Positions 40,801 to 62,800 of a stretch of DNA of 64,000 nucleotides are shown piece after piece. The stretch's first letter is position 1; each line of letters begins with the position of its first letter. Made by a program: the position numbers and the translations under genes. The stretch spans positions 16,956,156-17,020,155 of the forward strand of contig NC_092025.1 of assembly GCF_042242105.1 (NCBI RefSeq), written 5' to 3'. Below the pieces are notes generated by a model. It made no database searches and had not been told where the DNA came from. It was given only the letters and a program-made list of their open reading frames with translations. The stretch is from Pempheris klunzingeri. Lineage: Eukaryota; Chordata; Actinopteri; Acropomatiformes; Pempheridae.

Positions 40801-43800
40801 AACTAAAGATAAAAGAGCTGAGCTAAGCTGTCTGTCAGATAGCCCTGTCACAGGAAAAACCATGGAAATGGAAGCAGACCAGAAACAACTTTTCCCTCAG
40901 TGAGTAGAGTGTGCTGTCAGGGTTAGACAATGGTGTTTTTCTTGTAAATGGGGTACGAATCACCCCTCCCTACAGAGGATGGTTGAAGGCCCACCAGAGT
41001 GAGGGTGGTTTGTGGTGGATGAAGGCAGGAAGAGAGATAAGAGCCCGAAAGAGGTGCCCTTTTGTTTTAAATGTTAGATTTTTTTTCTTGAATAGGAGGA
41101 AATCATAAGCAGTTAATTATCTCTAGGATGTAGACGATTCAGTTTGTAGAGGTCATTGATTGATATTTCCCACTAACCTTTTAAAATGTCTCATACTTTA
41201 CTCTATAATCTGTCAAACGTATATGGTTTTTCATTTCCAGCATATCAGCACTACTTCTCTGAGTCATAAATCAGTCAAATCTGAACACACAGACATTATG
41301 CACATATTTTTAGATTCAGTGTGTTTTACACTTTCTGAGGATATCTTAATACCTAATGTCCATAATCTCACTTAGAAATAATGGACACTCCTTATAACAC
41401 CAGAGGTAGCCTGAAAATCATCAGATTTATATATTATAATCCCCTCAAAGTTGTGAAGTTATCGGAACATTAATTTAAAAAAAGTAAAACCGAGCAATTG
41501 ATTATCCCCCAAATTCAATTAAGGTAAAAAATAACAATAGGATCCATTTATATTAACTTATCAGTGGTTTTTTTTACATTACTAAGACTCAGAATGTATC
41601 ATTATGGTTCTTATGTCCTTTGAACACTGCCACCCCTCTGTTGCTTCATATACAGACATTTGACCTCTATAAGATTGAAACAAAAATGCCAGAAATATCA
41701 GGCTATGTGAGAACATGTAAACATATGAGCTGCACCAGAGCCCTGTTTTAAAGTTTAACATGCAAACTGTTCTGATGTGGTCACAGCAATCCATCTGGTG
41801 CTCCCAACTGTTTAAAACAAACACTGACAACTATTTGGGAATACTCTTTGGCCAGCTGGGAAAACCCAGTTGTGGGAAGTGAACAAACATCACTGTCAGC
41901 TCCCTCCTCACTGACCATGACAAGGCCCTCCCATCTGCTTCAGTGGCCTCACAAGGCTGTCGACAGCACTGCACAGCGATTAGTGAGCTTGGTTTGTTAA
42001 ATAAGAGTAAAAACACGATACTGGCCGCCCTACTGTAAATTAATGATCCAATAAAGTGTGATTAGCCTGTAATTTGACTCCTAACAAGCCCCGGCTCTTG
42101 CTCTGAGGCACACTATGGAACTGATGAGCGAATCTGTGGGGATCCTCCTCATCTTCCCGGTTAGTGATTTGGGTAATGCAGCCGTACAGAGGAATGCAGA
42201 AAAACTGTGTTTATTTCTGCACATCTGCTGCTGATTGGAGATGGAGCCTAGTTTGTTTTCATAATCACTGTTTGTTTTATGTATCTGTCGGGGTTCTGAC
42301 TGAGTTCAGTCACTGTACAGTTTTGCTGCATATGGCCTTTTATGCTTTCCTTGCCATATTTAGCAACGTGCTTAGTTTGGTTTATGTTTTTAATTAGGTC
42401 TTCAATATGTTTAATTTAGCCGTGTACACAGAGTTTGTTCATGACCCGCTGACAGGGGGAAGTTAATTGCTCTAATCTGTAATTGACTGAAAATGTTGCG
42501 ATGATTCTCTTTGCTTTTTCTTTCATCATATTGAGGTTGACAGATACACTTTGTCTAGTCATGGGGATACATGTCAGACCAGCCTCAATCGAACCATTAA
42601 ATAATAAATCCCACTTACGCACAATAACACAGAGCAGCTTTCAATACATGCATATACATGGGCTGTGCAATGCTCTACATATTTAACAACTTGCTGCATA
42701 CACGTTCAATCCTCCTTCTCTTTTTCTCATCCTTTCCTCAGGTCAACATAATTCCCATCATTGCCAAAGCAGACACAATCTCCAAGAGCGAGCTCCATAA
42801 ATTCAAAATAAAGATTATGAGTGAGCTGGTGAGCAACGGGGTCCAGATATATCAGTTCCCAACAGACGATGAAGCCGTCAGTGAGATCAACGCCTCCATG
42901 AACGTAAGTCATGACGTGACACTGCAGTAATGACACTCTCATACACTCGGTCTGTGTTTTTACCCTCCCTTATTTTTTTAGCACCGTATGTGTGTAATGT
43001 AGATTGGAACAAATGCTCAAACCTCACCGATTGGGCTGAAGACAAGAAAATTCCAGATGTGTTTTTTATATACACGCTTGGATGTGTTGAATGAAAAACG
43101 ATACCATTGCACTTGAGCCTTTCGGGGCTTCTCTCAACATTGTTGGATTAAAAAGGATTCTGTCTGTGTGCTTACTGACTTGTAACATCATGTCTTTAGC
43201 GCCTCATGTGTTAAACATCTGGCAAAGGCAGCATATGTTGACACCATTTTATTGCCTTAACACATGCTGAAAAGAAATGTTTCCTTTATCTAGCCACTTT
43301 GCAATCCCACAAATCTGCGTCTGTATACAGAGACAAGCTCTAAAAATATTTGCCAACACCAGCTGACCCCGGGGATGTGTTTGCACATAAGGTATATACA
43401 AACATTATACATAGTTTTGCACAAAATCGTATGGACTCCGTCCGGCCTCTGTTTGATTGAACAGTTTTCTGTTTTAAAAAGAATTCATGGCAGCACAAGT
43501 GTTCCTGCAACTGTCTTCATACCCATTTCTACATTCCCCATCATCATAATACACCAGTTATTTGGAAATACTGAAAAGAATATGCATCAAGTAGTATAAT
43601 TGAACATAGTGACTTTTGTTCATGCAACACCAATACATTTTTCTCTGAAAAATGAGCCCTTTCTACTTCCAATTTTATGATGGGGATGATGTATAATCAC
43701 ACTGTGCTCAGACACCCACACATGTACAAATGCACAAACGCTAAATTCTCTCATGGATAAATAAGACTGCGTTTGGTAGTTCCAGGCACAGTCGTTGTAC

Positions 43801-46800
43801 AGTATCCCCATCTATTCATAGTCGGTTTCGTCAGCGCCCACACTCACCAGCTTGTTCCTCTGAACAAGCTGGTTCAGAGGAACAAGCTAATTTTTGAGGT
43901 TGCGTATCAGGCATGTTTTCCCCCATGATGCCTCACTGTTGGTCCTAACGAGGCGTAGTAGCCCTGAGAGCAATAAGAAAGTGTATGTGTGTTTAATCAC
44001 TTCAACAAAATGGGCCTCTCAACCCCAACTGAGCCACATGTTAAACTTTAAAACAGGGCTCTGGTGCAGCTCATATGTTAACATGTTTACACTTCTCTCT
44101 GGTGTGGTCTGGTTGTGAAGGATAAGAGAGGCGACAGCCACACTGAAACACGTTTTATTTGAAATTAAGCACTGAAGTTTCATTTATCCTTTTTATAGTG
44201 TCATTCGCACATAACACGTCTGCGTCAAGTGAAATTGAACTTGGAAATGATGGCTGTACTGATAAGAATATTAGCATTGATGAAGTAGTAAAAAAGAAAG
44301 TGTAATCTAGAGAAAAGAGAGAGCTGGGACTCGGCCCCTGGTCATGGCTTCAGTTACACCTGTGACCTCTTGACCTTTTTGACACTAACCTTTTTTCCTG
44401 TGCAGGCCCATCTGCCGTTTGCTGTGGTTGGGAGCGTGGAAGAGGTCAAGGTGGGGAACAAAACAGTGAGGGCCAGACAGTACCCCTGGGGTGTCGTGCA
44501 AGGTGAGAACCATTCACAAGCAAGTTAATCAGGGTGTGTGTGTGTGTGTGTGTGTGTGGGTATTTGTGTTTCTCAAGCAAACACAACAGTGAGTGCATGA
44601 AGGGGTCAGTGGATGTCCTTTCTGCCACAGAATGAAGTTTTGACCAATAAGACAAAGGAAGTGCCGAAGGCACAAGTAACAAGGCTGAGGTGTATCATTG
44701 GTATCATTTCACAACTACATTAACATTTATCTTAAGTCAACAGGACGACTATGACGAAAAAACTTCTGTCTTTATTCCATAAAGTGCTGGTTATTGATGA
44801 CGAAATCACTTCCTGCTTGTTACTGCTGAGAATTTTACTTGTGATGAAATAGGGCTATATGATATGACAATATGCACTGTGCAACAATAGAAAAACTTTT
44901 GTACTTTGTGTACTTCTGCACTTCTTGTACCAATAAGAGGGGGACTTCTGTTGGATGGACTTGGTTTGGGTAAGAAAAGTCTGACATGGACCAGAAAACC
45001 GTACTTTGCAAGTTATGATGCAGACTGATTTTGTTACGATCAAATTAACTTTACAGAAAATGTGCTTTATCATTGGCGACCCTGACGGATAAACGGTATA
45101 GATAATGGATCTGTTTTAGTGTTTATGTGGAGGCTTCGCTGTGTTAATGGCCACCCCAAAGCACTAGGTGAAAAAATGGAAGTAGACAATACAACTAGAG
45201 CTGCAACAATTAGTTAATTGATTGATTGAAAGAAAATGTATCTGCAACTATTTTGATAATTCAATAATTTTTTTAACTTTTTTTTTTTAAGCAAAAATAT
45301 CAGCGTCTTTCTTACATTGCCCTTGCATTGTATTTTCACAGAGTAAAATTTAATCATATGATTCACCATCAAAAAGAGAAAAAACAAAACAGTGCTGGAT
45401 CTATTTTACACCACCTGCTGGTTGTGTTGAGGGTGTTTTGCTCTCATGAATAAAAGGCACATAGCATACATCAGCAGTGAAGCGAGCATTGGTGTTGATC
45501 AGTATCCATGGTGAAAGATGTTTCCTGCTCGTGGCAGAGAGGCGAGCGCCTCCCACAGTTTGCCTGTTTATTTATACCCTCCCTCTTAATGCGGAGTGCC
45601 CTCCGCAGATGCTTGTGTGACTTCATGCAGAGTGACACTGCGAAATGAAGGGCGAGTGGTTAGAGATTGTTTTGGGAAGTTGTCAGTGTGTGTCTGTGTG
45701 TGCTTATGATGTGTATGATGTCACATTTATTTCTTTGCATGCATGTAGCGTATGTTTCTCTGGCTTTGCATGCGTGCATGGCGTGCATATATGCCAGTAT
45801 GCCTGCCTGCATGCGTCACCCATAGAGACACCACCTAGTATGTCAGGGCTCCTGGAATCTTTGTTTCCCACAGCTTATTGCCCTGTGAGAAATTAGAGTA
45901 AACATTTTAATTTAATAAGTCCTCTCAGAGTTGCGCTGTGAGAATATTACGGCTCAGATGGGAGTTAGATTGTCAGAGAAGCCCTCTCTCACTCCCCCAT
46001 TTCCTCCAGCGCTCTCTCCCTCCCCTCTCCTCGGTTTAGTGCTCTTGTGTCCTCACCCTCTCTTCCCTTCCTCTCTGCATTATCCACTGACCACTCTCAT
46101 TCCCCAACCCTCAGAGGACATGCTATGGTTATTTATAAAGCCTGCTGCTCGTCTCCTGGGGACGGATTCCTTTGGATCCCATCAGTCACCATGAAGCTAT
46201 AGTCCAGTCCAGAAACAGGCAGCATAATGCTGTCTGCAAAAAAGTTCTCTCAACTTTACTGCCAGCTCATTTCTTTGGGATTTGTCTGCATCACAAAAGA
46301 TTTATTCCTTATTTTGTCATTCTTCAGCAGCAATTAACAGGCAGTAGATATTAATTGAAAACAGGCCTTTAGACTTTAGACTGTAGAGTACATGGGTGTT
46401 AAGATTCATAGAGGCTCAATATTGGATCCGTATGTAAACAAAGGCGTAGTTAAGCTTTGCAAAATGAATCACATCACACATTTTCTGTTTGTGATGATGT
46501 ACAACATTTGTTTACTGCAGTAAATCGGCCTAAATCTAAAATTCTGATAAGTTCATGAAATGCAAAATGTTGCGTTAAACGACCCTTATTGGGCCTTTAA
46601 TTCATGATCCGATGACTCTGGACAGAGAGGATTGTTGTCATATCCCATCATTGAGACTGTAAGAATTAATATCCTGTTGGATGACGCTGCTGTGTTTTCA
46701 TGAGCTTCTTCAGGTTTAACTTTTATTTCTAGAGGTTTTAGACAACTGCAGGAAAAGCAATTCTATTTACATGTTCATTATTCTTGTTATTGTCTGCTCT

Positions 46801-49800
46801 CCGTTATCTAATCAGCCTTGTCCATCTCTGCCGAACAACACAAATCTGGACTGATTGGATGCAATACAAGTCAGGCCAGCTTGCAAACGGATGGCTCACC
46901 ATTCATTCAACACAATTTGTCACAGTATCTGAGGACAGGGGCAGGAGAGGACAGAAGTCTCAGTGTCTTACTACTCTCAGTCAACTGAAAGGAGGGCCTG
47001 TGTCAATGGAAACAGTTTGTAGATGCCAGATGTCATATCGTTAGGTTATGGTAACCTCTCGAAGAGCCATGGGAAATTTCCATCGACTTGAGGGAAGACA
47101 GAGGAAGGACTGTCTACTGATGAGGGTAATTGAAGGGGGCTTGGTGTGTGTGTGTGCGTGTGCATGCTTTGGTGTTTATCTTTCCTCAGGATCTTGATGC
47201 TGTGTTATCTCTGAGCTCCAGACATCTGTGACATATAGCAGATCCCTGGTATTTCTTCTCCGCAAGCTACTGTGTGTTTGCTGCACACATATTGTGGTGG
47301 GTGTTTGTATGTGAACATGGGCTGGGCGACATGCTTAAAAGACTGGCACAAGATTAAAAACTTTTATCTAACAAATTATCTTCAAGTTGTATATTTGTTT
47401 GAAATTATTAATTTAGACAATCGAAATAACTTCTTGATACGATTTTACTGAAATCTGCTAAATGATGATTTTGAATTATCACTCAGTCTCAGTCAATTAG
47501 GTTGTTGATCAAGTAGGTTGTTACTTTGATAAGAATCCAAAATCATCTGTGTGTCCTCAGTGGCTTTTATGCATAAGTCAAAATTGGCCTTAGACTTTTG
47601 CCAGAGCCCACCCAGCACCCACACAGCCACACATTGATAGTACAATAGATAGTAGATAGATAGTAATACTTGACAATTGCCACTTGACATAAGGTATCGA
47701 AAGTCTTTGCTGTTGCTGTTTAAAAAAAGCATTCAGTTTTTAGCCATGGCTCTGTGGATTGCTGTGTTGGTTTGCCAGTTGGTTCAACACTTTGGAAGGA
47801 ACTGAACTTTGTCAACAACTATTTGATTCATTACTATGAAAGTAGAGATATAAGGGTCTCCAGAGGATGAATGGCAACTTTGGTGATCCCATGACTTTTG
47901 CTGTAGTTGACTTTTTTTGGTCTTGGTGACATGTTTTTACAACGATTGGCTGATTCCCATGCAATTTGCTGTTGATATCCATGGTGCCTGTCAAATGAAT
48001 CCCAATGACTTTGATGGTCCCCAGACTTTTCCTTTAGGGCCACCAGTGGGTCAAGTTTTTCACTTAAATGCTTCGGTTTACGACCAAATACCTGCAAAAC
48101 TAATGATATTCTCATCAGCCTCAGCTGATGCTACTAAATCACCAGGCATGGAAACATAATTCATCATATAAGTTTGTGTAAAATATGCAAAAGCCTTGCC
48201 AAAAACACAGGAGCTGACTATCAGCCTGGGACACATGGATCATATTTATCTTCAGTGAGATGTCTAAGGGTTCAGGCAGTCTGCAGCATGGTGTTTGCAT
48301 TTCTTTTCATTTTACACATTTGTCTATTTCCATTAATTTTTGATCACTGTAGATTTATTTCCAGCCATTCCTCTTTTCTCTCCACCGTTCTCTTACATTT
48401 TTATGGTCCTAGTGTGTGTCTACAGAGCCGTGCACTCTCATATCTTGAGGGCTCAGTGCTGCAGTCAGTCAGAAGACTGGCCCTCATTCAGCCCTCAGCG
48501 GGGGGCCAGTATAGAGAGACTATTAGATGCCAAATGAACATGCAATTTCAGTAGCCTGGATGCAGCCCCAGAGAACAGCTCGTTTCTGTTTTTAACTTGT
48601 ATAATCCCACTAATGATTTATGGTCAGCTAGCAAATTTGAAGTAAAGATAGAGGGAGTGATTCATGCAGCTGCATCACCGCTATATCACATCTTTTAGAA
48701 ATTTATTCTGGGTCCAAAAGTGTGAAAGTAAATGAGGGTTAGTTTGTGTTTTATTCTTGCTTTTTTGGCCTAGACTAATTAAGAAAAGTCTTATTTCTTT
48801 GGGTGAGGTGTTTCGGTTGTTCAGACACTATATTCGGTGCTCCTTTGTGGTTCACTATCATGCACTACTGGCTGCTTTTCCAGTATTTTCCTTTAGAGAA
48901 GCTACATTCCATGCTAATCAGGCTTTTTGATATCATTATTGTCCTTTTTACATCCTGGGAACTTGTATCTTAAACACAACATACATGCCACTCTCCACCA
49001 CTGCCACCCCAGGGTTTATGACATTCTCCGGCCCCTGACAGACCACGTGCCTTCGCTCACGTGTCTTCAGCCACCACACACACACACACCAGATATGAGA
49101 CAACTGAAAAGCTCATTATAGCATCGTTATAGCATCTGTGGAATGCTAACAGGTTGATCACATTAGCTTCCTAGAACCTTATTTTTCCTCCGACAACACA
49201 TGTCTGTTTTAAAGAGCCACTCTGGTTTTTCCAAGATTAGCCAGCTGATGTATCAGGTTATACACTGGAGTCTGGAGCACAGCTTCTCTAGGTTTTGCTC
49301 CAGGTTCACAGTCATTTGCAGAAATTTGGCAAGATTGGAGGAGATTGAGCATATCAAATAATCAGAGGTTTTCCAAGTTTCCACAAAGACTATGAAGGTA
49401 TTATCACATCTGTAAATGGAGGGGAAAAAAATAACGTCAAGGAGGGAAAACTCAATTTCCAGAGGGAGGAGGGATTTTCCTTGATGAGAACACTCTGCTC
49501 TTGAAGTCTTAAAAAGCATTGGATTCAGTTTTCCTAAAAAGGCCTTAGAAGGTATTAAAATAGATTTAATTTACAAAAGTAATATGAATATATTATTAAA
49601 TATTGTGTCTTGCCTGCAGTAGGCAGTAATGTTGGTTTTTGTATTGGATTTTGGGCTGTTGGGAGGAGTTCCAATCTAATTTGATCCAACTTTATTCATA
49701 AAGCACACATAGTTACACGTGTAAAGTGTGTGGAAGAGCCTTTCAATACTTTTTGTGGAGTTTCAGACCTGCAGTAAGCACCATCACTACTGCAAAAACT

Positions 49801-52800
49801 TAGCAAAAAAACTTCAAGCAATCAATAATTTCTCAGTAGGGAGTCTATCCAACACTAGGTTCATTTAATTATTTATATCATGTTTTATACTTCCTGGAAG
49901 TACTGAAAAAATGTGATTTAACAATGAAAAATTCTTCTCATTTGTTAACTTATCGTCTTTTCAATCATACTTTTATACTTTGAGCAGTATGAAACGGGTA
50001 TTAAATTGCACTCTATGTGGTATTACCAAGGTCTTACAGTCTCAAATTTAACTAACTATAAGCAGCATATGTATTGCCATGTTATTACCCACTTGTTTTG
50101 TCTAGACTACATTCTGAAAGCCCAGAGACTGATTCACAGTACAGGTGGATTTGGACCACATTCAGGCAGCCATGCCCACTTGGTCTTCCCACATTGACTT
50201 CTGTTCTGGCCTCCAACAGAATTAAAAAAAATCAACGTTTTAATTTCCTGAACAGCCCATTGTAATGGAGTAAATGAGGTAAAGGCTCCCCCCATCCCAT
50301 CCCATCCCGTTTCTGCTGTCAGGCAGGAAGTGCCTCCTGCCCTTTCCTCACCATGAATTCATTTAACTCACTTGTTTAATTCAATGGATGCCAAGTGTGA
50401 TTTATCCAGTGTAGTTTGTGCAGACTGCTTCACATTCCTGTAGAGATGTGGTATGATTTCCTGCTTTTGAAAGAGAAATGGAGAGGAAGGGAGGGTGACA
50501 GTTGTGGTGTTGAAATGAGTTGGAAGCAGTGAAAATGACTGTCAGGCTCAGAATGAAAGACTCACAACTTGAAAAAAGACAAGACTTTACATTTGTAGCT
50601 GTGACACTCACTCAGTAACAACTAAAAAAAAACAAAAACAAATGCTCACCTGAACTCCAACCACTGTCCTAATTCTGGTGTGTGCTTTTCCTTTAGTCGA
50701 GAACGAGAGTCACTGCGACTTTGTGAAACTCCGAGAGATGCTGATCAGGGTCAACATGGAGGATCTGAGGGAGCAGACCCACGCCCGCCACTATGAGCTG
50801 TACCGACGCTGTAAGCTGGAGGAGATGGGCTTCAAAGATACAGATCCTGACAGTCAGCCATTCAGGTAGAGCAGCAGCGTGTGAAAACACACACCCACTC
50901 GCCAGCACACAGAATCCAAAACCGCAGACATGCTTGAGTGTCAACAGCAGGGAGAGTCTCTGTTGTTTGGAGACAACACCTAATCTTTTTCCTGTCTATT
51001 TTCACCCTCTCCTCGGTCCTGTCTTTTCATCTCTCCAGTCTTCAAGAGACATATGAGGCCAAGAGGAAAGAGTTCTTGGGGGACCTGCAGCGTAAAGAGG
51101 AAGAAATGCGACAGATGTTTGTCAACAAAGTAAAAGAGACGGAAGCGGAGCTGAAAGAAAAGGAGAGAGAGGTCAGTCTCTAGTGAAGTTATGGTTATAG
51201 ATACAGTATATTGGATTTGAAATGGTTACTGATGTGTCCAATTATGAAACACTGCAACTTCAGGGACACCTTTTGTGATAATTCGGCATAATAGCAGAAC
51301 AATAAACTGCAATAAATAAACTTGTGCTATTTTGTGCATGCAGATACACAACCCATGTTAATGTAAAAAATATTGATCAGTGCAGCCATGAATGAAGGTC
51401 AGTAAGTTTCAGTTCTTCACTAAGTTCTCGTCTCTCCTCTGTCCTCCCCCCTGTCGCCTCATCCCATCCGTCCATCACCACCCTCGTCTCCTCCCGCTCA
51501 GCTGCACGATAAGTTCGAGCAGCTGAAGCGGATGCACCAGGAGGAGAAGAGGAAGGTGGAGGAGAAGCGGAGAGACCTGGAGGAGGAGATGAACGCCTTC
51601 AACAGGAAGAAGGTGGCAGCCGAGACGCTCTCCTTATCTCAGCCCCTCAAGAAAGACAAGGACAAGAAAAAGTAAGCCGGTCCTTCCTTTCTATCACTCA
51701 CTCGCCTCATTCCTCTTTGCTGCTTTTTCCAGCCTCGCTCCTTTCTTAAACTAATCCTGTTGTCTTTTCATCCTGTGCCTTTAAGTCTGAAATGATTTCC
51801 TTTTTTTTTTTTTGTGGACTAGCTCCTCCTGCCTCTCACCCCCTCCCTTTTTGCTCTCTAACCCCTGTTACAAGTCTTTAGGCAGGAGGCTGTCATTCTC
51901 AAGTCCTGTGGCAAAGTGTCACATCAATGAGCCTTTAACTGAATGTGCTGCACAATTGTCGACCCATCTCCAACACACAAGCGTTTCAGCTTGTGTAAAG
52001 CCCTGGCATGTGTTAAGGAAACTTCCTCTCCTTTTTGTCCTGCCCAGGCTTAACATTTCCTGTCCTTTCACTCCTTCCCTTTGCCTCGCTCTAATTATTC
52101 AGGATATTCAGGGAGGAGCTAGTGAACTCACTCGCTGAGGCAATTCAACGTTTGGCTTATAAATAGGTGATGCAGCTCACACAGGGCTAAGCAAATTTTT
52201 CAAAAGGGCTGTGTTGATACAGGCTTTTCACACACAGCCATTTCCAAGGAATAAGTTTCTCATATTTATTTTACCTTTCAGTTTGTTTCACTACAGTCGG
52301 ACAGTCCACATGCACACATGTAGACATGTTTTTATTGTGCTGTGATTCAGTTTACAGCAGGCATGGTTGAATCCTTCCTTATAGGTACTTTTATGGGAAC
52401 CTTCAGCTTCCTCTGGTTTTGATTTAGCAGCAGTGCATACTATGTGGCCATAAGTGTGTGGACAGACCTGTCTTTTGTGATACAGAGCTGCTGTTTCTGG
52501 TTTTGGCCTCGGCACCTTAGTTCCAATTAAGGGAAATCTTAATACTAGAGTACATAGTGATATTTTAAACAATATTGTTCCTCCAACTTGTGGCAGCAAA
52601 TTGTTTTCTTGTTCCCACACATGGCAATGCCCTCTGCACAAAGTGAACCCCATAAATAATCCTATCCAACACTTTTTAGTTAAATTAGAAAGCTGCTGGC
52701 CAAGCCTTGTCACCCAGTTGTCAACACTAATGTTGTTGTGGCTGAATGAGAGCAAATCCCTGCAGCCAGACTGTAGACAGTCATTTAAGTGTCTGATGTT

Positions 52801-53544
52801 CAGGTGACTGCTGTGAGGCTGATATGAGCAGAATTTTTCTGCAGCCATCTCTTATATCTTGGATGTTGGGGGTCCCTTCATGTCACCAGCAAGGAGGACT
52901 CTACCAAACTCCTAGAAAAGAGGAGATGACTGTAAATGTATAAATATACACCAAAAGCACATATTCACTAGTCTCCCCTTTTCAAAGCAGGACAGTTAAT
53001 GTAGTCCCAGTCAAACTCCCTGAGGCCTGGAATCTGAGAATTAATGTGAAGACATGTGGCTCCATCTTGTGGCGGCTCACACACTCTGCTGTCAGCGCCG
53101 CTGCAGCAGACTGATCTTCCATTTTGAGGTTTTGCGAAGGTGATTCCACAGAATCTCGGTCTGCTTTTTATGCGTTTAATTTACTCTCCCGTCTAAAGTT
53201 CTCTTACACTTGAGGAAACTTGTTGATGTAAAAACTTATTTCAGATACAATGTCAGAGGCTACATTCAAGTGCGATGCTTGTAAAGGAAAACGTAGCGCC
53301 CCTTCCCCCCCTGCTGACAGATTAACTACATCATTTTGAATGCGTTTGTAATGCTTCACACTTTTCTATTGTACTCTATTCACTAACACAACCTCAGGTA
53401 TTTAGTTTGACTGCAGCAACTCTTTGCTTTAACGCTACTTTATTAGTCAAAATCTTTATTCATCATTTATTAGTTCCATGAAGCGGTTGTTCATTTATTC
53501 AATTTATTTTATTTATTGTTTGTCTTCCATTGTTTTCCAGTTAA
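22239..53544 (+). CDS. septin8: Septin-8, short isoform
   Basis: It shares the nine exons from 22239 to 51671 and then splices to an acceptor (TGTTTTCCAG) ending at 53540. The last exon completes an Asn codon (AA|T) and meets TAA at 53542-53544, so the protein ends KDKDKKN after 420 residues. As I remember, a human SEPTIN8 isoform ends the same way. The form keeps the GTPase domain and coiled coil but lacks the Cys-rich tail. Two AATAAA words at 54319-54324 and 54400-54405 are suitable poly(A) signals. Coding beyond 51671 in this isoform is only one base plus the stop. Confidence 0.75.
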
Positions 53545-56500
53545 TTTATGGGCGCTGTATACCCTCGCACACACGACCATGGATCTGTCCTCCATCACCA
53601 TAGCAACGACAACACCTGTTCATTTTGTTTGTTTGTTTGTTTTCTTTTTGTTTTGACATTCCATCTTGACATTGTGCACATGGACCAAAGACACTGAGGA
53701 TGATGATGATGATGATCATGATGAAGCCACAGGGGAGAAAAGAGTGAAAGATGGTGAGAGATAATGAGGAAACGTGTTCACTTGCCAACAGTGGCCATCT
53801 CATTTATTCAGGATCTTTCATTCTATGTTTTCTTTTGGACACTTTTATATATACATATATATATGTATATATTATATATATATATTATATATATATCTAT
53901 ATGTATGCATTTTGTTTTTCTATGTTGTGATTTAAAAAAAAAAAAAATTCTGTTTTTTTGTTTTTTTTGTGTTATACCATCAACTATTCACACAAAAACG
54001 AGAGGTTTCGAGCCCTTCAAACCTTTTGGTACTACAGTGTAACACAGTGGGCAAGCCATTTGAAACAGTTCAATTAGAATACAAAAAAAAAACATTAGGA
54101 TATGGTTGATTGACATTTAAATTACTAACTGAAGATATCAGTGAAATCAAACATTTCCTAAAGGTTTTTAAATACCTGAACTGTTTTGAAATGTTGTCCA
54201 GGTGCAGTGTGTCTGTTAACCTTTTTGTAACCACGGGAATTTATATTAATTTCACAGTAGAATAAACCCCTGTATCAAATAAGCCCAGATAATACATTTA
54301 CATAGCATTATGTCGAGCAATAAAACTGAGTACCTGTATACTGTTTATATCGCTGCATATACATAGGTACTGACAACCTAAAACTTATTCTTAAGTCTGA
54401 ATAAAAACGTATGCAATATTTTGGTGCTGTTTCATATTAACTGTATGTGAATATTTTTTAGAGCTTACCCAGCTTAATATGCAAAATGTACTAGTTTTTG
54501 AATATGATATTATTGTAAGAAGCACATACGACGGTGTACATTGTCCATAAGTGATGTAACTTTATTGTAAACTATGAGTGATCGCCTCGATGTGAGTGTT
54601 GTGACAGTGGACACAAACATGAAGCCAGTATATATACACACTCACACACTCACACAGGGTTCAGGAAAACATGCAAGCCTCAGCTCGCTGTAGAAGAGTT
54701 TACACTCAGAGATGGCGAAAAGAGCAGCTGTAATCACCGTCTGTCGTTGGAAATAAATGCAACCCCCCCCCCTCATCCGACTTTGATGTGTGTCTCTGCC
54801 GTGGTTTGTTTGACGGTGTTCACTCAGATGAAAGTGAAACACATGCAGGTGAAGACGCCTAATTCCTACCACACACACACACACACACACACAGGCAACA
54901 GACAGAGGCTGTCTGCTTCAAATGTAACCCAAACAGCTGTGAGCTTTAGACGCAGCGTTTCCTGTTTAGTGATCTCTGACAGAAAAGCTGAGTGATGTTT
55001 GCACAGTCTGCACACAATCCTCCCTGCTTTCAACCCTGTGCTGCTGACCTCAGCTGGGTGTGTGTGTGTGTGTTCAAGAAAGCACGTTTACAGTGTGTTT
55101 GCCAATGGTGGAAAGGAAGGTGTGGGTGTGATGATGCGTGTGAGTGGCTTGTGCATGTACAGTGTGCGTGTTTGACACAAACTGGCAGCTGGCAGTGTGA
55201 TGGCTGGATTTCAACACTCAATAACTGCTTCCTTGCGCCATCTCCCTCTCAGCTTCTCCTCATCCAAATGTGAAAACACAGATGTAATAGTTAGCAGTAT
55301 TGATTGGATAATATAGGTAATGTAGAGATGGACGGGATAATGCATGTACATTTGATTCATTTATACATTAGGAATTAGTGGAGATCAATAAATAATAGCA
55401 AGATTTAGATAGTTGTGTATTTTTACATTCATATGTAATATGCTAAATTGACCCGTCCCCTCCCCCAAAAAAACAAACTATAATAAGGTGAAAATATGCA
55501 GGAAATGTCTTCAGTTTTGGTCTTTGTCAATTTTGTCCACATAACATGCATGTGTTTATTGAAACTGGGATGTATGCATGACAGAGAGCCAACTTCCTTC
55601 ACCAAGTGTTTTGTTTGTATTATAATACCAAGTCTGAACTTATTGAATCCTGTCTTTGACAATTACCCTCCATAATGCTGAAACTAATAAAAACTAAACT
55701 AAAACTAAACTGAAACAAATTAAAAAAATCAAACCGAAACACTCTGGAAACTAACTGAAACTAAACTAAACTGAAAAGGAAAATTAAAAATGCAATGAGG
55801 ATAAATCTAATGAGAAATGCAAAGCTATTAGAACACTGACTGGGTCAGTATTATTGACTTAGTCAATAACCAACCAACCAACAGTTGTTTTTATTATATC
55901 AATTAATCTGTCAGTTATTTTCTCAATTAACTGATTAATTGCTTGGCTGGTAAAACGTTAGAAAACAGTGAAAAACACCCATCAGTTTCGTAGGGCTCTA
56001 GGCGTCTGAAAAAATCCCCAAAACATTCCAAAACAACTGAACAACCATGATAACGTTTCTTTATTTCTTATCATTTCCTGTATTGTTGAACGACAGACTG
56101 CGTGTACGATTCACTGAAAACAGACAGGAAGTCAGGACTCAGTATTGAGATCTCTCCATAGTAAATGGTTTTCTGTTTACTGTGAGGGCTCTGCCAGCAC
56201 TATTATTATTCTGTCCACCACCTGCAGGGCTCACTGGATCTCATCCAGCGGCACAATCTGTTCAGGGCTCTCTGTTCTCTCCATCCTTTAGTGCAGCAAC
56301 ACACTCCGCTAACAAAGCTCCATGATAATGACTCCCTGACAGTCTGTTCTACATACAGGACAGCATGGTGGCTCACAGAGACTGTTGTCCACATCTTATG
56401 GGCTTGACTTGTAATGCTGTAGTCAGACCGGGTTTTCATGAGGAATTAGGAAATTACATGAGTAAGGCTGAGATGTTGTTGAAAGTTTAAGTCGTTAACC

Positions 56501-58209
56501 ATGTACAAGTGTACTGAAGTCATATGGGTCAAACCTAACTCTGCTGACTAGATAGACATGAAATACTGGGATTTATGGAAGCCCAAGCAAAAGAAGTGGG
56601 ATAAAATGTTAATAATGAAAACAAACTCACAGCAAGTCAAAACTATAAATCCTAAATTAGAAAATTGTACTGTATAATAATTTCAAATTAGCATATTACA
56701 TTAATTTATAAACTTCCATTTAGGACAACAAACTGATCGACATGGCACAGAAATAGTAAATCAAACTAATTTAATTTACCAATTCTGCATTGTACTTCTT
56801 TAACAAGTGGGATTCCTGATGGACAGTTAGAGGATCGTTATCAATGCAACAGAAACAGATCACTTTGGCTGATTAGACCTGTGTCTGAAATCACTCCATG
56901 TACTATAAGGCTCATTATATATACTGTCCAACATTTTATTTTAGGATCCAAATTCTATAGGGTGTAAATTTATCCACGACATACAGCCCTTAAAAACACA
57001 AAGGGATAGAAAAGTAGTGTGCATGGCATGTATTTAAATCATTAAGGTATAACTACCTTTTTATAGGAACAACACACAAAGCAAAATATGGACATCAGTA
57101 TGTTGCTCAAGTTTGGACGTGTGTTTGAATTTTTTCGTGTGTTTTTTTTCTCCATCTGATGGAGGACTAAACGTGACAACTCTCCAAATGACTCCTGTTG
57201 AAACGGACAAACCAGAAAATTACACTTGAGACTTTCAAAGTCATAGCTTTATTTCTGTGGTTGACCAGACAATAAGCTATAGCTGCCTCAGTAAATGAAG
57301 GAATATGAAAAAAAAAAATAAAACCTTTACACTGGTGTAGCATCCAGCTTGACTTCTCGAATCGAAGCCGACTTTACAGTTGAGAAAACGGACAGTAACC
57401 ATTTCACATTAAAGAGAACATTGCTGGCTCCGCTCAGAACAAAGTCAACAGTTTGAGCAGCTGTGAGTTAAAGAAAGTATGAAGATCAAAGTCTGTTCAG
57501 TGTCTATAAGCTTCAGCTGTTTGGCAGTCAAGTCCCTCTGGACACACTGTGTGCTCAAGTATCAGCAAACATTAAATACTAATATTTGTCACCATTTCAT
57601 TTTACACGCCAGTATTGTGATGAAACTGACATGACTGAGGTATTTACAAAATAAAAAACAGGATACTTTTACCCCAGTACTTCAATTTGGGATTTGATTA
57701 TTTGTGCTTTCATACCTTATGTAATAAGAAAATATGTAAAATACAACAAGTGATGCTGGATCATAATCAGGTAACCTCATGATCTCAAAAACAACAATTT
57801 ATAATCATTCCTGCTCTAATGTAGAATCGATGTCCCGAAGTTGCTCTTGTTTGATATGTAACAGTTGCATGAAGCAAAACTCAACACAGGCGGAAGCAAT
57901 AATGAAATAAAAGTATTTGCAGCATTTAGTCGTGAAATTAAAGCTGATTTGTAAAATGTAGCTTCTGCAAATAACTGTTAAACACTTAGCACAAAAGTTT
58001 AGTACATGTAAGTAAGATTAAAATAAAAAAAAGGTGAAAAAATATAGTTATTTGCATTTTTTTTTTTTTTTTTTTTAAAAAAAGCTTAATCTCAAAAGTG
58101 CTATGTGGCTCGGCAGGGGAACCTGAGCACCAAAATACCTCACAACAAACAAAATCAGGATAGACTCTCAAACATTAAAAAGAAAAAGATCTTGGCCTGA
58201 ACCACACTC

Positions 58210-58241
<32 letters not shown>

Positions 58242-59801
58242 ACACCACTGCCTACGTCTTATCCTTTACCTCCGACTTGTCAAATATAAATAAAGGTCAG
58301 GAAGGTTAAAAAGTAGAAACAAACATGGCGTTAATAAGTCTGGAACTTAAATGGACCTCTTTTCTCTTCAAGGAGAAACATTAAAATCTTAATTCAGTCA
58401 CGCTCCACGATTCGCCACATTTTCTCCTAAACTGCCCGGCTGTCGACACAGAGAGAACAAGTTATGGCATCAGAATCAGAGGTCAACTCGAACACTGATC
58501 CATACACACATTTGGCCGTGGACAAGTGCACAGCAGAGAACGAGTCTGTGCCTTCTCTTAAACCCTGTAAATCATCTCCGTAATGTTATGTCAGGTGAGG
58601 ACCATCTGGACTTCAGTCAGTTACTCCAGTTGCACGGTCACACTTTCTAATTTAGGTGCTAAAATGTGCTGAATTACAGCATGTTGGACTTTCTCGCTGT
58701 GGAATGGAAGCACTGTGCACTTGTAAGAGGTGGGCGTTGTCAATAAATGTCAGACTAGTTGACAGCGGGGTGCAGTGGCGGGCAGGGCGAGACACGTTTC
58801 TGCTGGGAGTCAAATAAACCTCCGGCATCCTTCCCCTCCGCCGCGGGAGTCTCCTCGTTATACAAACACCTAAAACCGTCGTAATACTCGTCAGTGTCCT
58901 TCTCCTCCCTGCCGCCCCTCCCCCTTCCGGCCTGCCTGAGGCTCTGCGTGGGGCTCCAGGCTCGCTCCTCGTCCTGGATCTGAGTGCCGTCGAAGATGTA
59001 GACGGCGTTGGCCGGCAGGGAGAACTCCAGGCTGTGTAGGTACTCGTCCACCATCTCTTTGCAGTGGATAAACTCGGCACTGTCGACCTGGGAGAGCAAC
59101 AGACATCGTAACGTTTGTTAGCGTGTCAAATGGGAGCAAGCTGGAAGCAGATTCGACCAGTTTAAAGAACGATCTGAGATGATCAACTGATCAGCTCAGG
59201 GGATTTTCAGTTTCAGCGTAGTGGCCTGATGCTGTTAAACTATATTTGAGTGACCACAGCCCTCACCGATGTTAAGACAAAAGATCACTAAAAGATCCTT
59301 TTCTCAGTGTGACAGTGGTGGATGTGTAGAAGCAGCTGATGTTTTAACCAAAGATGTGCTGGTTTTTGGCAGTACAGAACATCACATATCACTTAATATA
59401 GGCCTTTAATGTGGTGCCTTCATTCAAAGTAAGTCAATTCTAAACTGCAAAAGGTGCGACGTACAATGAAATGAAAAATACTTGCGAGACATCTAAAAAA
59501 GATAAATACAAGGTATGCTAGCTTACAAAACGAAAAGGCAATCAACCAACATATGGATTCCAATATGTCTAATCACAGAGAAAGAGCCTTCCTAGTGGGC
59601 CTGTGCATTTCTCTTACTTGTGCTTTCTTCAGCAGATTGGTGAAGACGGAGAACCAGTCAGGCGTGAGCGCCTCCAGCTCCAAAGTGATGATGGCCAAGG
59701 CCAACGTGGAGCCCTTGAACTGCCAAAGCTGGTGGCAGGCCATACAGTGCTGCACCTGCCTGGTCCACAACGCCGCCTGGAGGCCCGCAGGCCTCTTCTG
59801 A
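22239..59801 (+). CDS. septin8: Septin-8, long isoform with Cys-rich tail
   Basis: Septins are GTP-binding proteins that polymerise into filaments at membranes and the cytokinetic furrow. Septin-8 belongs to the SEPT6 group (6/8/10/11). Coding exons: 22239-22268, 32941-33055, 33374-33569, 37205-37391, 42742-42903, 44406-44502, 50697-50865, 51039-51171, 51502-51671, then 59633-59801. All phases join, giving 475 residues (human long form about 483). The start [10 protein letters not shown] in a CACCATGG context is typical of septin-8. GTPase motifs: P-loop GETGIGKST at 49-57, DTVG at 101-104, AKAD at 184-187. A coiled coil spans about 320-410. The alternative ending adds residues 420-475 with WW and clustered Cys (450, 459, 460, 462), probably palmitoylated. 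That last exon is antisense to ccni2. Septin11 is excluded by the N-terminus and by this tail. Which teleost copy (8a or 8b) is not decidable here. Confidence 0.88.
24671..24739. repeat. Two-copy tandem duplication, period 36
   Basis: The word TTTTGCATGGAGTGAATTTT occurs twice, with the GCATGG cores starting at 24684 and 24720, separated by T-rich sequence. The copies are virtually identical, so the event is probably recent slippage. Confidence 0.8.
25658..25682. repeat. Homopolymeric G run
   Basis: 24 of 25 bases are G, with a single A at 25666. It is a strong G-quadruplex candidate on the plus (non-template) strand of septin8 intron 1. Length may be affected by sequencing or assembly. Confidence 0.9.
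26222..26765. mobile_element. Non-autonomous DNA-transposon-like repeat
   Basis: It begins AAGGCGCTTTCACAACCACA and ends with 'agcacaggtgtgaaaactcc'. The interior has the 'gagcgtgttccccttggctc' and 'gagttcacacctgcccaag' words that I recall from a widespread fish repeat. No transposase frame is present. The open frame at 26284-26511 is part of the repeat, not a gene. Confidence 0.5.
29865..29927. repeat. Fragment of a common fish repeat
   Basis: 'acttttacttcagtaaagga' followed by 'tcttagtacttctttttacc' matches the end of a common teleost repeat; the fragment at 34790-34915 appears to belong to the same family. Confidence 0.45.
30860..30905. repeat. SINE-tail-like fragment
   Basis: GGCAGATGCTTTTGCTCAAA followed by GTGACTTACAATTA resembles the widespread fish word GGCAGACGCTTTTATCCAAA-GCGACTTACA, which I associate with SINE/LINE tails. 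Only this short part is recognisable. Confidence 0.4.
30975..30995. repeat. (GT)n microsatellite
   Basis: A pure GT run of about 10 units in septin8 intron 1. Confidence 0.9.
31795..31861. repeat. Long (CA)n microsatellite
   Basis: A CA run of about 33 units, the longest in the window, in septin8 intron 1. It is likely polymorphic. Confidence 0.95.
32941..33055 (+). CDS. septin8: septin8 coding exon 2
   Basis: Acceptor CCCCGCAG|A and donor TAG|GTGAGT. It encodes [20 protein letters not shown] and continues to FCFNILCV, leaving in phase 1 just before the P-loop. SEPT6-group septins share this start. Confidence 0.93.
33374..33569 (+). CDS. septin8: septin8 coding exon 3, P-loop and switch regions
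   Basis: It completes GETGIGKST (G1, binds the GTP phosphates) and carries DTVGFGDQ (G3) near its end. Phase 1 in, phase 2 out (donor ACAG|GTGAGG). Confidence 0.95.
33932..33972. repeat. Imperfect 41-base direct repeat, copy 1
   Basis: AGCCAGACTAGCTGGACCAA continues with a CGCAGCGGGCGGTG core. The copy at 34056-34096 is the same length and identical at roughly three quarters of its positions. Confidence 0.55.
34056..34096. repeat. Imperfect 41-base direct repeat, copy 2
   Basis: AGCCAGACCATCTGGACTAA continues with a CGCAGCAGGTGGTA core. It pairs with 33932-33972; the spacing between starts is 124 bases. Confidence 0.55.
34790..34915. repeat. Fish interspersed repeat fragment
   Basis: 'gcagtatgaagtaacataaa' and 'atggaaatactcaagttaac' match my memory of a very common teleost element whose other end resembles 29865-29927. 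Confidence 0.5.
37205..37391 (+). CDS. septin8: septin8 coding exon 4
   Basis: Acceptor TCCCCACAG|T and donor AAG|GTACAC. It encodes 62 residues including [20 protein letters not shown] and [17 protein letters not shown], highly conserved in SEPT6-group septins. Phase 2 in, phase 0 out. Confidence 0.95.
37392..42741 (+). other. septin8: septin8 intron 4
   Basis: No supported exon on either strand. It contains one arm (41712-41762) of an inverted repeat pair whose other arm is in intron 5. Otherwise only simple A/T-rich stretches are seen. Confidence 0.65.
41712..41762 (-). repeat. 51-base inverted repeat, arm 1
   Basis: It is the reverse complement of 44037-44087 with one mismatch; the shared core reads AAACAGGGCTCTGGTGCAGC on the minus strand here. 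It is probably an interspersed repeat present in opposite orientations. Confidence 0.8.
42742..42903 (+). CDS. septin8: septin8 coding exon 5, G4 motif
   Basis: 54 residues, phase 0 at both ends. It starts [20 protein letters not shown], with AKAD being the base-specificity G4 motif, and contains [19 protein letters not shown]. Acceptor TTTCCTCAG|G, donor AAC|GTAAGT. Confidence 0.95.
43849..43888. repeat. Perfect 17-bp inverted repeat with 6-base loop
   Basis: Left arm AGCTTGTTCCTCTGAAC (43849-43865), loop AAGCTG, right arm GTTCAGAGGAACAAGCT (43872-43888), with no mismatch. It lies in septin8 intron 5. Confidence 0.95.
44037..44087 (+). repeat. 51-base inverted repeat, arm 2
   Basis: It pairs with 41712-41762 at 50 of 51 positions. 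Similarity does not clearly extend further. It lies in septin8 intron 5. Confidence 0.8.
44406..44502 (+). CDS. septin8: septin8 coding exon 6
   Basis: Acceptor TTCCTGTGCAG|G, donor AAG|GTGAGA. It encodes [20 protein letters not shown] and [11 protein letters not shown], the end of the GTPase core. Phase 0 in, phase 1 out. Confidence 0.95.
44534..44558. repeat. (GT)n microsatellite
   Basis: A pure GT run of about 12 units just inside septin8 intron 6. Confidence 0.9.
45196..45330. repeat. MITE-like fragment
   Basis: 'agagctgcaacaattagtta' and 'ctgcaactattttgataatt' are the hallmark words of the GCTGCAACTA repeat group also seen at 1304-1561. Confidence 0.55.
47740..48135. repeat. Percomorph interspersed repeat
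   Basis: It contains 'aactttggtgatcccatgac', 'gacttttcctttagggccac' and 'ctgcaaaactaatgatattc', the order I remember for a frequent unclassified fish repeat with internal sub-repeats. Open frames here (47834-48159, both strands) are repeat-derived. Confidence 0.6.
50697..50865 (+). CDS. septin8: septin8 coding exon 7
   Basis: Acceptor TTCCTTTAG|T, donor TTCAG|GTAGAG. It encodes [20 protein letters not shown] and [16 protein letters not shown], the septin unique element before the coiled coil. Phase 1 in, phase 2 out. Confidence 0.95.
51039..51171 (+). CDS. septin8: septin8 coding exon 8, coiled coil
   Basis: Acceptor CTCTCCAG|T, donor GAG|GTCAGT. It encodes [20 protein letters not shown] and [17 protein letters not shown], the first half of the C-terminal coiled coil. 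Phase 2 in, phase 0 out. Confidence 0.95.
51502..51671 (+). CDS. septin8: septin8 coding exon 9, end of coiled coil
   Basis: Acceptor CCCGCTCAG|C. It encodes [20 protein letters not shown] and ends in a Lys/Asp run, KKDKDKK, leaving in phase 2 at AA|GTAAGC. The donor overlaps an in-frame TAA at 51673-51675, so unspliced RNA would end the protein at KDKDKKK. Confidence 0.92.
53541..54420 (+). other. septin8: septin8 proximal last exon (stop and 3' UTR)
   Basis: Acceptor TTTTCCAG at 53533-53540. The first base completes Asn and TAA follows at once; the rest is 3' UTR. It includes a GAT run near 53698-53714 and an AT-rich repeat at 53845-53899. Candidate poly(A) signals stand at 54319-54324 and 54400-54405. 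The exon end is inferred. Confidence 0.65.
53845..53899. repeat. (AT)n-type low-complexity repeat
   Basis: Alternating TA dinucleotides with occasional C or G interruptions, in the proximal septin8 3' UTR. Confidence 0.85.
54870..54893. repeat. (CA)n microsatellite
   Basis: A pure CA run of about 12 units. Confidence 0.9.
55678..55785. repeat. Degenerate AAACTAAA-type satellite-like stretch
   Basis: The words AAACTAAA, AACTGAAA and close variants recur with T and G strongly depleted on the plus strand. It looks like a degenerate short-unit repeat. Confidence 0.6.
55886..56043. repeat. MITE-like fragment
   Basis: 'tcaattaatctgtcagttat' and 'aactgattaattgcttggct' followed by 'aaaacgttagaaaacagtga' match the interior of the GCTGCAACTA repeat group; the ends are worn. 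Confidence 0.55.
58057..58083. repeat. T20A7 homopolymer pair
   Basis: A run of T is followed directly by a run of A, inside the inferred ccni2 3' UTR. Confidence 0.85.
58213..58240. repeat. Poly(A) homopolymer, 28 bases
   Basis: An uninterrupted A run on the plus strand. No retro-element body is recognisable on either side, so it is listed only as simple sequence. Confidence 0.85.
58755..59087 (-). CDS. ccni2: ccni2 last coding exon
   Basis: Acceptor TGCTCTCCCAG|G on the minus strand. It encodes [20 protein letters not shown], a linker rich in Arg/Gly, then [16 protein letters not shown] and [11 protein letters not shown] before the stop. Human cyclin I ends with a matching DDFYDG-RLYNED and SPCPPL pattern. 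Confidence 0.9.
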   Translation of the reverse strand, partial: VDSAEFIHCKEMVDEYLHSLEFSLPANAVYIFDGTQIQDEERAWSPTQSLRQAGRGRGGREEKDTDEYYDGFRCLYNEETPAAEGKDAGGLFDSQQKRVSPCPPLHPAVN

Positions 59802-62800
59802 TGCCGCGGCTCGGCCGGAAACAAACCGGGGTCTGTTGCCGGGTCCCAGCCGACGCCGCAGCCGAGCCCGATGGACGGAACGAGGTGAGGGTGGCCGGAG
59901 ACGAGCAGGGCGTGGAACTAGACCGGAGGGGAGCAGGGGAAAGAAGAGGAACGAGACCAAAACATTAAACATAATGATGTCATTGTTGTCCCATAGTCCA
60001 TCCATCCCTTACCCCTACTACTTCGTAATTCATACACATCAAAATATATCAGTGCAATTAACATCCAACCAAGTCACCACATCATTCATCCCAGGACACC
60101 GTCACTTTGCAGTCCGTGATTCTCTACCCTTCTCAAATGTTCACTGCTGCATTAAAAGCCACAGTAAAACGCTCTGTGCAGGACACTTTGAGCAACAGGT
60201 AGAGAATCCCGTCATCAGGTTTTACTAATGAGGATCCTCCCCGTTTGCCTGAGGAATCATAGTAATCTTGTTCGTATTGTATCGTACGTGCAGTGCTTTT
60301 CTGTGTTCCCATTTGTAGGCAGGAACTGTAAAACGACAACCAGAGTGGGGTCTCAAGAGGAAAAACCAGACTAGATTCTGAAATATCCGTCGCATTCTTT
60401 CATGTTTGTTACATTCAAATGTCTTTGTGTTTCATTCATGTTGTGTTGAGCTCATTTTCTTCAGTTTGTCTCTCAGTAGCAGAAATAAGCCATGGGAATT
60501 TACAGGGAGGTAGTCTGAAACTAATCCCTGGAACAGTTGCTCTGGACCTCTTCAAATTTAAAAGTCTTTTCCTCCTTAAATCCGTTTTTGGAAATGTCAG
60601 GGTGACGAAGCCAAAAAAAAAAAAAATTAATTTGTGTGTTCTGGAGGTGAAAGACTTGAGCATCACACAGCTGATTCTGCCTTTCAAAATAGTTGTATTT
60701 GGATGTTGAAGCATACTGAGAGGTAATGACAAGGCATCTCTGTAAATCCTCTTATTTATTCATATCAAAGTGTCATGGTGGAGAGTCTGTGACAAATTAT
60801 TGATAGATTTTATTGCTGTTTTATAGACAACAGAGAAAAACACACTATGTAAGAGGTAATTCTTCTGGGCAGGGGTGATGTAAATGGGGGATACAGTATA
60901 GGTACAAAAAAGTATTTATTTGAATAGTATAAAGAGAAAATGTCTTTATTTTATTATAGTTTTTATTAATACGTTATGTCTTTTTATTTTAAAAAAGGGA
61001 TTTTTGTAATACCTAAAGTGAAGTGCTAGGACAATAATAGATTCACTACAATTACTCCACACACTGTAAACCTATAAGCCACCAATAATCAGTCAGATCC
61101 ACAAACCGTAATAGTAGGGGGGAAAAGTGCCATTTTCAGTTTTGCAGAAGACACTGAATCAGTCCAAATGTGCCAAATTGCTTTTTGGTGACGGCTTGTG
61201 ATTAATGAAATTGATGGAGGACAAACACGTTCTTCGTAAATCCATGAACAAATCTAATGCTGTTATTTGTTGAGGGAATGTAGGCTGGCCGTTGGTTGGG
61301 GATAACTACTGACTCAGAGTGCATGACAAGACTTGACAAGTAATTAAATATCTTCTACTAAAAAAAAGAACAAATAATATTCCTGTCAGATTTATTTAGA
61401 ACAGCTGTGCGCATCAGGACTGGTGGTATCCCTAAAACTGAATCGTCTCAATGGAAATCCTTTGGATAGTGTGGATCAAGTCAATGTATTAACTATTTCT
61501 GTTAAAAAAAAAAACATTACGGGCCGTGTTCATAAAAGCATCCAGCTGCTGGCCTACAGATCGTTTATCCTCATAGTTTTCTATGGCTTACAGCATAGCA
61601 GCATATAGCATTAATCCACGATTAAATCATATCTAGCTGCAATCTGGATGAGATGCATTTTCAATACAAGGTGTAAAGGGAGTTTAAACATGCCGTTACA
61701 GCCAATTATATGAAAACGTACTGTAAAGTTACTGATCTTTAAGGATTACATCCTGGATGATCACCTTATGAATACAGTCCTGGGCCCGACAGCATGACGA
61801 GACCTGAATGGTGTTTGTGTGCGTCTGTCAGCGGTTAAGGCTTTAGGGGATGATTTGCGATGGTTTAACAATTAAATACTTCTGTGAACAGGTCCAAACT
61901 ATGAGACGATGATGTGCCATAAAGTAAAGCTTTGGATTTTTAAAACAACAAAACCTCACTTTGACATTAGAAACAGTCTCAACAATTCACAGCATATTAT
62001 AGATCAGCCAATGACCCAGATCGTGTCTGTTTCTGGAGGGTTTGGGTCTCTGCTGTAGGGCTGTAGGTAAGAGTAAGTCAGAAGTGCCTTGGCCTGACAT
62101 GCAACACGCCTGTTACTTTGCTGGCAGCTTGCAAATGCAGTCTTGTGTGGTCCGAGGAATCTCATACAGCGCTGTTTAGACCTCATGCCAAAATGCGACT
62201 TTGTTGCTTTGTGTCCACACACACACTCAACTCTGGTGAGTGGCCTGGGTTACACTGTAACTTAGGTTTGTCCAAAACATGGTTTTCAAGTCCGGTATTG
62301 TCACTTTTGCACTGAAGCTGCAGACAGCTGACGATGAAGTTCTTTAGAGTGGAAACCTTCACTCAGCATTTAAATGATGTGGCACTAAAGCAGTCATTTG
62401 TTGGGTTTGCAGTTATTTAAAAAGGTGACTTATTCCATGGGTTAGGTTACAACTGAGTGACTTGTGCAAGGATAATAAAATGTCTTCAGGTTCAGGGGAC
62501 TATTATCATAGCTGAGGTCTGGTAACATTATATCATTCTATTAGTATACAAATCAATATTTAACCATATTCTAGTCAGTTTGTCCTGATGTAATGGAAAA
62601 GCAAATGTTAATCATATAACATGTCCTATAATTATTTTGATTTTATTACTTGCATCAGGGAGAGGTATGATTTCATTTTCCCTTCTTGGCCGCAGTGATT
62701 ATTAAAAAAAAAGGGGGAAGGACAAACAGAACTGAATGGAGTTTATAATAATGGGCACAATGAGTCAAATCAAATGAATGCACAATCTCTACCAGGACCA

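Follow-up and report, generated by a model that had tools for sequence, protein, structure and literature searches.

A septin8 last exon inside an antisense ccni2 exon: a predicted two-protein overlap that is probably old among bony vertebrates

The locus

A window of 64,000 nucleotides from the Pempheris klunzingeri genome (contig NC_092025.1, positions 16,956,156 to 17,020,155 of the forward strand) was analysed, and all coordinates are positions within this window. It holds two convergent genes, septin8 on the plus strand and ccni2, which encodes cyclin I2, on the minus strand. The septin8 coding exon at 59633-59801 lies entirely within the ccni2 coding exon at 59618-59917, so that 169 bp, with the septin stop counted in, are coding on both strands. 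Very probably this is an exon within an exon with translation predicted from both strands, in an arrangement likely older than the split of ray-finned and lobe-finned fishes. The placement of the distal septin8 last exon had been proposed from the letters alone (the sequence-only reading); splice sites, phases and open frames were found to fit it on both strands.

Table 1. Coordinates of the septin8 and ccni2 features in the window.
Feature	Position	Strand	Basis
septin8 upstream exons 1-4 of seven	32941-33055, 33374-33569, 37205-37391, 42742-42903	+	Splice joins, Pfam Septin
septin8 upstream exons 5-7 of seven	44406-44502, 50697-50865, 51039-51171	+	Splice joins, Pfam Septin
septin8 exon before the switch	51502-51671	+	Donor AAAAA|GTAAGC
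septin8 distal (alternative) last exon, coding part, encoding the CC-pair tail	59633-59801	+	Splice context, frame, homologues, joint encoding
septin8 distal stop TGA	59799-59801	+	Frame reading
septin8 acceptor region (pyrimidine tract, AG), opposite ccni2 codons LKKAQ	59618-59632	+	
First ATTAAA 3' of the septin8 distal stop, possible polyadenylation signal	59964-59969	+	Consensus match only
ccni2 upstream exons within the window	63960-63826, 63446-63372, 63227-63087	-	AG/GT borders, lengths divisible by three
ccni2 internal coding exon, 100 open codons, phase 0 at both ends	59917-59618	-	Splice sites, homologues
ccni2 last coding exon with stop	59087-58755	-	Starts at AG, open to stop

Gene models

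For septin8, the eight exons from 32941 to 51671 were joined to 59633-59801, yielding 465 amino acids in frame (first coding exon excluded), with AG/GT at every junction in the splice-site reading of the window. The spliced protein matched Pfam Septin with an expectation value (E) of 1.6e-98, and this GTPase domain, together with named septin-8 homologues sharing the tail, identifies the gene. Read unspliced, exon 51502-51671 continues as AAG TAA, the short-isoform stop at 51673-51675. At 51670-51677 this stop forms part of the 5' splice site GTAAGC, and splicing itself thus deletes it. At the join to 59633 (TTGTGCTTTCTTCAG|CAG), two codon bases from 51502-51671 and one from 59633 form an Asn codon, and a tail of 56 residues follows, ending at the TGA. 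With the short-isoform stop in the donor at 51672 and a stop of its own in the distal exon, the overlap exon qualifies as an alternative last exon. The isoform switch was demonstrated in mouse only, according to the passages available from PMC6092797, and is read in fish from sequence. The acceptor is a tandem CAGCAG (59630-59635), and a variant tail with Lys replacing Asn-Arg is possible.

For ccni2, the first four exons in the window have AG/GT borders and lengths that are multiples of three; exons further upstream fall outside the window. Exon 59917-59618 has the acceptor CCGGTCTAG and the donor GTAAGA. The database cyclin of Pempheris klunzingeri (P0020) matched the window at 100% identity across the part of ccni2 that was searched and carried Cyclin_N (3.4e-19), which identifies CCNI2 together with its relation to proteins named cyclin I2. 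Some short-read contigs carry a spliced ccni2 reading frame that is nearly complete (e.g. P0030, 377 amino acids on 1294 bases), which suggests spliced ccni2 transcripts in other fish.

Splice boundaries of the two genes are 15 bases apart. By coordinates, septin codon positions 1, 2 and 3 lie over ccni2 positions 2, 1 and 3, which sets third position against third. What fixes each septin residue is thus positions 1 and 2 of a single cyclin codon plus a shared wobble base, and conservation of one frame is partly automatic once the other is conserved. Since cyclin conservation forces much of any residue-by-residue agreement, this agreement had to be judged against a synonymous-codon null.

Homologue searches

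The septin tail search returned 17 proteins among 19 candidates. Fourteen of them carry a septin domain, and three are contig proteins matching in the tail only. Twelve of the 17 were usable spliced septin-8 tails, from fish (Pelmatolapia, two Sinocyclocheilus, Alosa, Prochilodus, Coryphaenoides) and tetrapods (the caecilian Geotrypetes, four birds, the gerbil Psammomys); two further ones were Geotrypetes isoforms with an identical tail. The ccni2-strand search returned 250 proteins at E<=0.001, and among the best 120 of these the named ones were cyclins, the rest being unnamed or hypothetical. The earlier claim that both translations resemble known proteins was thereby borne out, the tail leading to septins and the opposite strand to cyclins. 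A sister case at SEPTIN11/CCNI was considered and rejected, as septin-8 was the only septin named in the 17 tail matches; SEPTIN11 and CCNI are presumably neighbouring genes.

A second ccni2 search started from a probe that was derived by reading the septin tail of Psammomys through the register. This search returned 311 proteins, of which the best 120 were listed, and in this list mammalian cyclin I2 proteins matched the probe at 78-93% identity. One protein was here predicted from the other, with some ambiguous probe residues chosen by hand. The best 120 of each search gave 239 distinct cyclins, covering teleosts, sturgeon, bichirs, coelacanth, amphibians, reptiles, birds and mammals.

A rival reading is that in this species and other teleosts the tail exon is an artefact of gene models and is never spliced, its use being confined to tetrapods. 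In its favour, P0004 and P0005 are read unspliced into the exon and P0019 begins inside it, all without a junction, and no teleost transcript junction was seen. This explanation is rated highly improbable, given a good donor and acceptor in the right phase, spliced tail models in teleosts that include Pelmatolapia, Alosa and Sinocyclocheilus, and the conservation of wobble-decided sites in teleost tails described below.

Joint encoding of the two proteins

For 12 database pairs of a septin-8 tail and a cyclin I2 from the same or a near species, the maximum number of residues of both proteins encodable by one DNA sequence in this register was calculated. Six pairs were perfect: Pelmatolapia/Oreochromis (110/110), Alosa/Sardina (108/108), Coryphaenoides/Gadus (88/88), and at 108/108 each Geotrypetes/Microcaecilia, two Corvus species and Oenanthe/Motacilla. 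The other six missed 1-5 of 108, among them Sinocyclocheilus rhinocerous/S. grahami (107/108), S. grahami with itself (106/108), Pardalotus/Motacilla (106/108) and Leiothrix/Motacilla (107/108). The window with its own Pempheris cyclin scored a trivial 110/110, being the same sequence. Among the controls, which were 24 shifted registers, two other antisense phases at three offsets, and 200 shuffled versions of every pair, no score rose above 72 (56 in the 44-codon pair).

The sequence-only reading had also held that the human proteins fit this register residue by residue. At the level of protein sequence, a provisional human SEPTIN8 tail was jointly encodable with gibbon (Nomascus) cyclin I2 at 108/108; the register fit stands to that extent, and the residue-by-residue agreement is largely automatic given cyclin conservation. 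Genome browsers presumably display human SEPTIN8 and CCNI2 as overlapping.

The septin core NCxSWWxAIQCCxC was exactly encodable by 215/239 cyclins, and 20 of the other 24 fell one core residue short. In 17 of these 20 an L to V change makes septin S into T (squamates, salamanders, two moles); the remainder are two clupeiforms with a change present in the Alosa tail, and Sinocyclocheilus grahami P0132. Larger shortfalls were found in P0135 (two residues) and in P0183, P0184 and P0247 (three each). By itself the core test separates the paralogue weakly, as a provisional human CCNI stretch scored 12/14. In Saguinus oedipus, P0183 is a second, diverged cyclin I2-like protein on a different contig from P0160.

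Where lineages differ, septin and cyclin residues mostly change together. In septin/cyclin notation, N/F becomes H/C in the clupeid pair and Q/C becomes P/G in the rodent pair. One site is Q/W in fish, T/V in the caecilian and birds, and S/L in the rodent pair; another changes from A/A to T/V in the caecilian and birds, with the rodent pair as an exception (A/V). A mainly regulatory role, through convergent transcription, double-stranded RNA or splice control, with the coding frames as mere passengers, would be consistent with convergent mRNAs complementary over at least 169 bases and with the closely spaced splice boundaries. The mirrored replacements obey protein logic whichever strand is read, and the two proteins fit together residue by residue; such a role as the main one is judged to have a very small probability.

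Selection on the septin frame

One rival to dual coding is that selection acts on ccni2 only, the septin frame being conserved through the coinciding third positions and the tail being incidental. The register is the antisense frame that is excluded in PhyloCSF annotation work, where 234,336 regions were set aside (PMC6886504, in the passages available). A null was built from random synonymous cyclin codons for seven lineages, at three settings of GC content at third codon positions (GC3), with 4000 draws per setting. Null tails had 61-75% mean identity to the observed tails, and the septin frame stayed open with a chance of 7-39% per lineage. Over the 32-residue septin core, mean pairwise identity was 0.807 as against 0.57 in the null (standard deviation 0.017-0.018, maximum 0.65), and 21 columns were invariant as against <=12; both values lay above all 4000 draws at each of the three settings.

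Wobble-decided septin residues were then compared at sites where the cyclin residue is equal in fish and tetrapods. Of 16-18 such residues, 12-17 were identical where 7.3-7.9 were expected (z 2.4 to 4.6 in eight non-independent fish-tetrapod pairs). In the ACHQ of the window cyclin, His is CAC and Cys is TGC; CAT or TGT would create TGA in septin. In HCM, Cys is TGT, which preserves a septin Ile. In mouse, moreover, the tail is palmitoylated and active (PMC6092797) although CCNI2 is reported to be missing there (PMC5256034), each according to the passages available. As a full account, selection on ccni2 only was rejected by the random-codon and wobble-site tests, and it is considered very unlikely.

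Several points weigh against dual coding. The open frame is not improbable on its own at the chances given above, the null assumes saturated synonymous sites, and the tails were retrieved for their resemblance to the one in the window, a procedure that favours conserved tails. Support comes from the window DNA and database proteins of other vertebrates, and database septin-8 models may themselves rest on predictions. In P0004, P0005 and P0019 a Trp replaces the septin stop and the frame continues for >100 residues. Two pairs, Prochilodus/Electrophorus and Psammomys/Ictidomys, missed five residues each (103/108). Most pairs are of related, non-identical species, which may also explain the misses. 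Finally, no YCAY cluster above the 99th percentile of the window was found at 51400-59900, which leaves control by NOVA in fish unsupported. As a separate observation, the contig proteins with Trp for the stop are fish-like, and a third-base change silent in the cyclin could account for it.

The cyclin side of the septin stop was examined in the same set. At the Gln opposite the stop the frequency of the major residue was 1.00 (rounded), with 0.44 and 0.51 at its neighbours (207/239 sequences). This Gln was located by pattern in 226/239 cyclins, and in 226/226 the residue preceding it is one that a codon with a final T can encode, as TGA requires. Outside the pattern were 13 cyclins: eight gene models that appear to skip the linker, P0046 (Gln present), P0113 (unclear), P0252 (begins later), P0184 (His opposite the septin stop) and P0247 (looks degraded).

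In the same 207 of 239 sequences, ccni2 entropy was 0.58 bits in the overlap, as against 1.48 bits in the part of that exon preceding the septin stop and 1.25 bits over the 30 residues that open the next exon. This was not taken as proof, since the variable region is a linker modelled with low confidence and the difference could come from the cyclin fold. The Pempheris cyclin was modelled with 43 sequences (mean predicted local distance difference test score, pLDDT, 56.7); there the overlap corresponds to residues 195-250 and is mostly helical, at low confidence, with predicted helices at 199-220, 223-239 and 241-253 following a linker with pLDDT <50. The modelled helices suggest that the cyclin may have its own reasons for conserving this stretch.

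Function of the tail

Statements on mouse Sept8 and on CCNI2 in this section follow the passages available from PMC6092797 and PMC5256034, respectively. Mouse Sept8 has two alternative last exons, and NOVA promotes exon 10b (PMC6092797). In the exon 10b isoform C469 and C470 are palmitoylated and form part of a filopodia-inducing motif, and dendritic arborisation is promoted; palmitoylation and filopodia induction are known from mouse, COS-1 cells and neurons only (PMC6092797). Related Sept8-204 work is cited in the part available of PMC11427461. The mouse exon belongs to the same gene and encodes the same tail, the spacing of C469-C470, R475 and R480 fitting the gerbil tail shifted by one residue; cyclin, CCNI2 and antisense go unmentioned in those passages (PMC6092797). 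The CC pair is present in 12/12 usable tails. At the first of the two mouse basic positions, teleost tails have His and those of the caecilian and birds have Lys; at the second, the residue is Arg or Lys.

CCNI2 binds and activates CDK5, as shown for human and chicken, and is reported absent in mouse and rat (PMC5256034). The septin-8 tail, active in mouse, thus functions where the cyclin is reported missing. The cyclin of that work is the same one, present in human, chicken and zebrafish and high in chicken neural tissue; its N- and C-termini vary among species, and a neighbour or overlap is not among the passages (PMC5256034). Psammomys presumably lacks CCNI2 too, to judge from mouse and rat and from the absence of a named mouse-like rodent among the best 120 of 311 matches. 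Its tail was compared with 44 proteins, P0140-P0183, which are all mammalian, to judge from their names or similarity, apart from P0182 from a lizard. Mismatches common to >=20 were confined to the first 20 scored residues, and beyond these <=5/44 mismatched at any site, a pattern that agrees with a tail functioning where the cyclin is reported gone.

Proposed mechanism and age

For the dual-coding arrangement the following mechanism is proposed. Unspliced, the exon at 51502-51671 would meet an immediate stop inside its 5' splice site, as the sequence shows; splicing to 59633 would add the 56-residue tail with its CC pair, a palmitoylated filopodia motif in mouse and by analogy perhaps in fish. 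The opposite strand would contribute a predicted helical part of the C-terminal half of cyclin I2, and its exon-end codons LKKAQ would double as the septin pyrimidine tract and acceptor. To judge from the mirrored changes at protein level, a replacement in one protein would force a corresponding change in its partner. Freedom would be confined to the third bases that the two frames share, and these appear to be held where they decide Cys, Trp or the stop in septin. Most likely, the septin exon was born by exonisation on the back of an older cyclin exon.

The ray-finned and lobe-finned lineages separated about 430 million years ago. As the arrangement is present in both, an age of >400 million years is likely, and the earlier claim of such an age is upheld by a register conserved at protein level in teleosts, caecilian, birds and rodents. 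The locus may well be the oldest known antisense two-protein exon of vertebrates, with a tail overprinted before the divergence of bony fishes, residue-for-residue co-evolution, and a cyclin lost in mouse-like rodents while the tail survived. If so, that loss is a natural release experiment.

Comparison with known overlaps

No description of a SEPTIN8/CCNI2 coding overlap was found in the literature at the level of titles and abstracts, supplements and subscription papers being outside the scope. That antisense coding overlaps are rare in vertebrates, as the sequence-only reading had it, agrees with a survey (PMC2335118, in part) that counted opposite-strand pairs whose coding regions overlap, 51 in human and 28 in mouse. 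As the survey, in the part available, required one-to-one human-mouse orthologues and the cyclin is reported absent from mouse, SEPTIN8/CCNI2 would presumably escape it.

The locus joins a known kind of overlap, and the closest described precedent is TRalpha2 (THRA)/Rev-erbalpha (NR1D1), described here from parts of PMC3047299 and PMC4569393. There too an alternative last exon of one gene has its coding sequence antisense to a coding exon of the gene converging on it, with 67 codons of bidirectional coding, and the tail alters the function of the isoform. As in that type, coding exons on opposite strands share base pairs at septin8/ccni2, where expression is predicted. TRalpha2 overlaps Rev-erbalpha in the latter's terminal exon and 3' untranslated region, whereas the whole septin coding exon lies within an internal exon of its partner, in teleosts as well as tetrapods. 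The precedent is much younger, its coding overlap being found in eutherians and eliminated in opossums, with TRalpha2 elements absent in platypus (PMC3047299, PMC4569393).

An overlap across bony vertebrates with the function of one product known would serve as a test bed for mutual protein constraint, and would inform the birth of an exon on the back of another and the fate of one partner after loss of the other. If the human genes overlap likewise, a single variant in the exon can alter both proteins.

Additional observations on cyclin I2 models

The linker-skipping cyclin I2 models are P0090, P0095, P0096, P0099, P0101, P0106, P0109 and P0120; the GC-rich linker beside the septin stop was probably cut from them as false introns. 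In the camel cyclin I2 (P0247) it is the overlap region that looks degraded. Six mammalian cyclin I2 proteins are named Cyclin-G1 in UniRef (P0140, P0142, P0146, P0150, P0171 and P0179).

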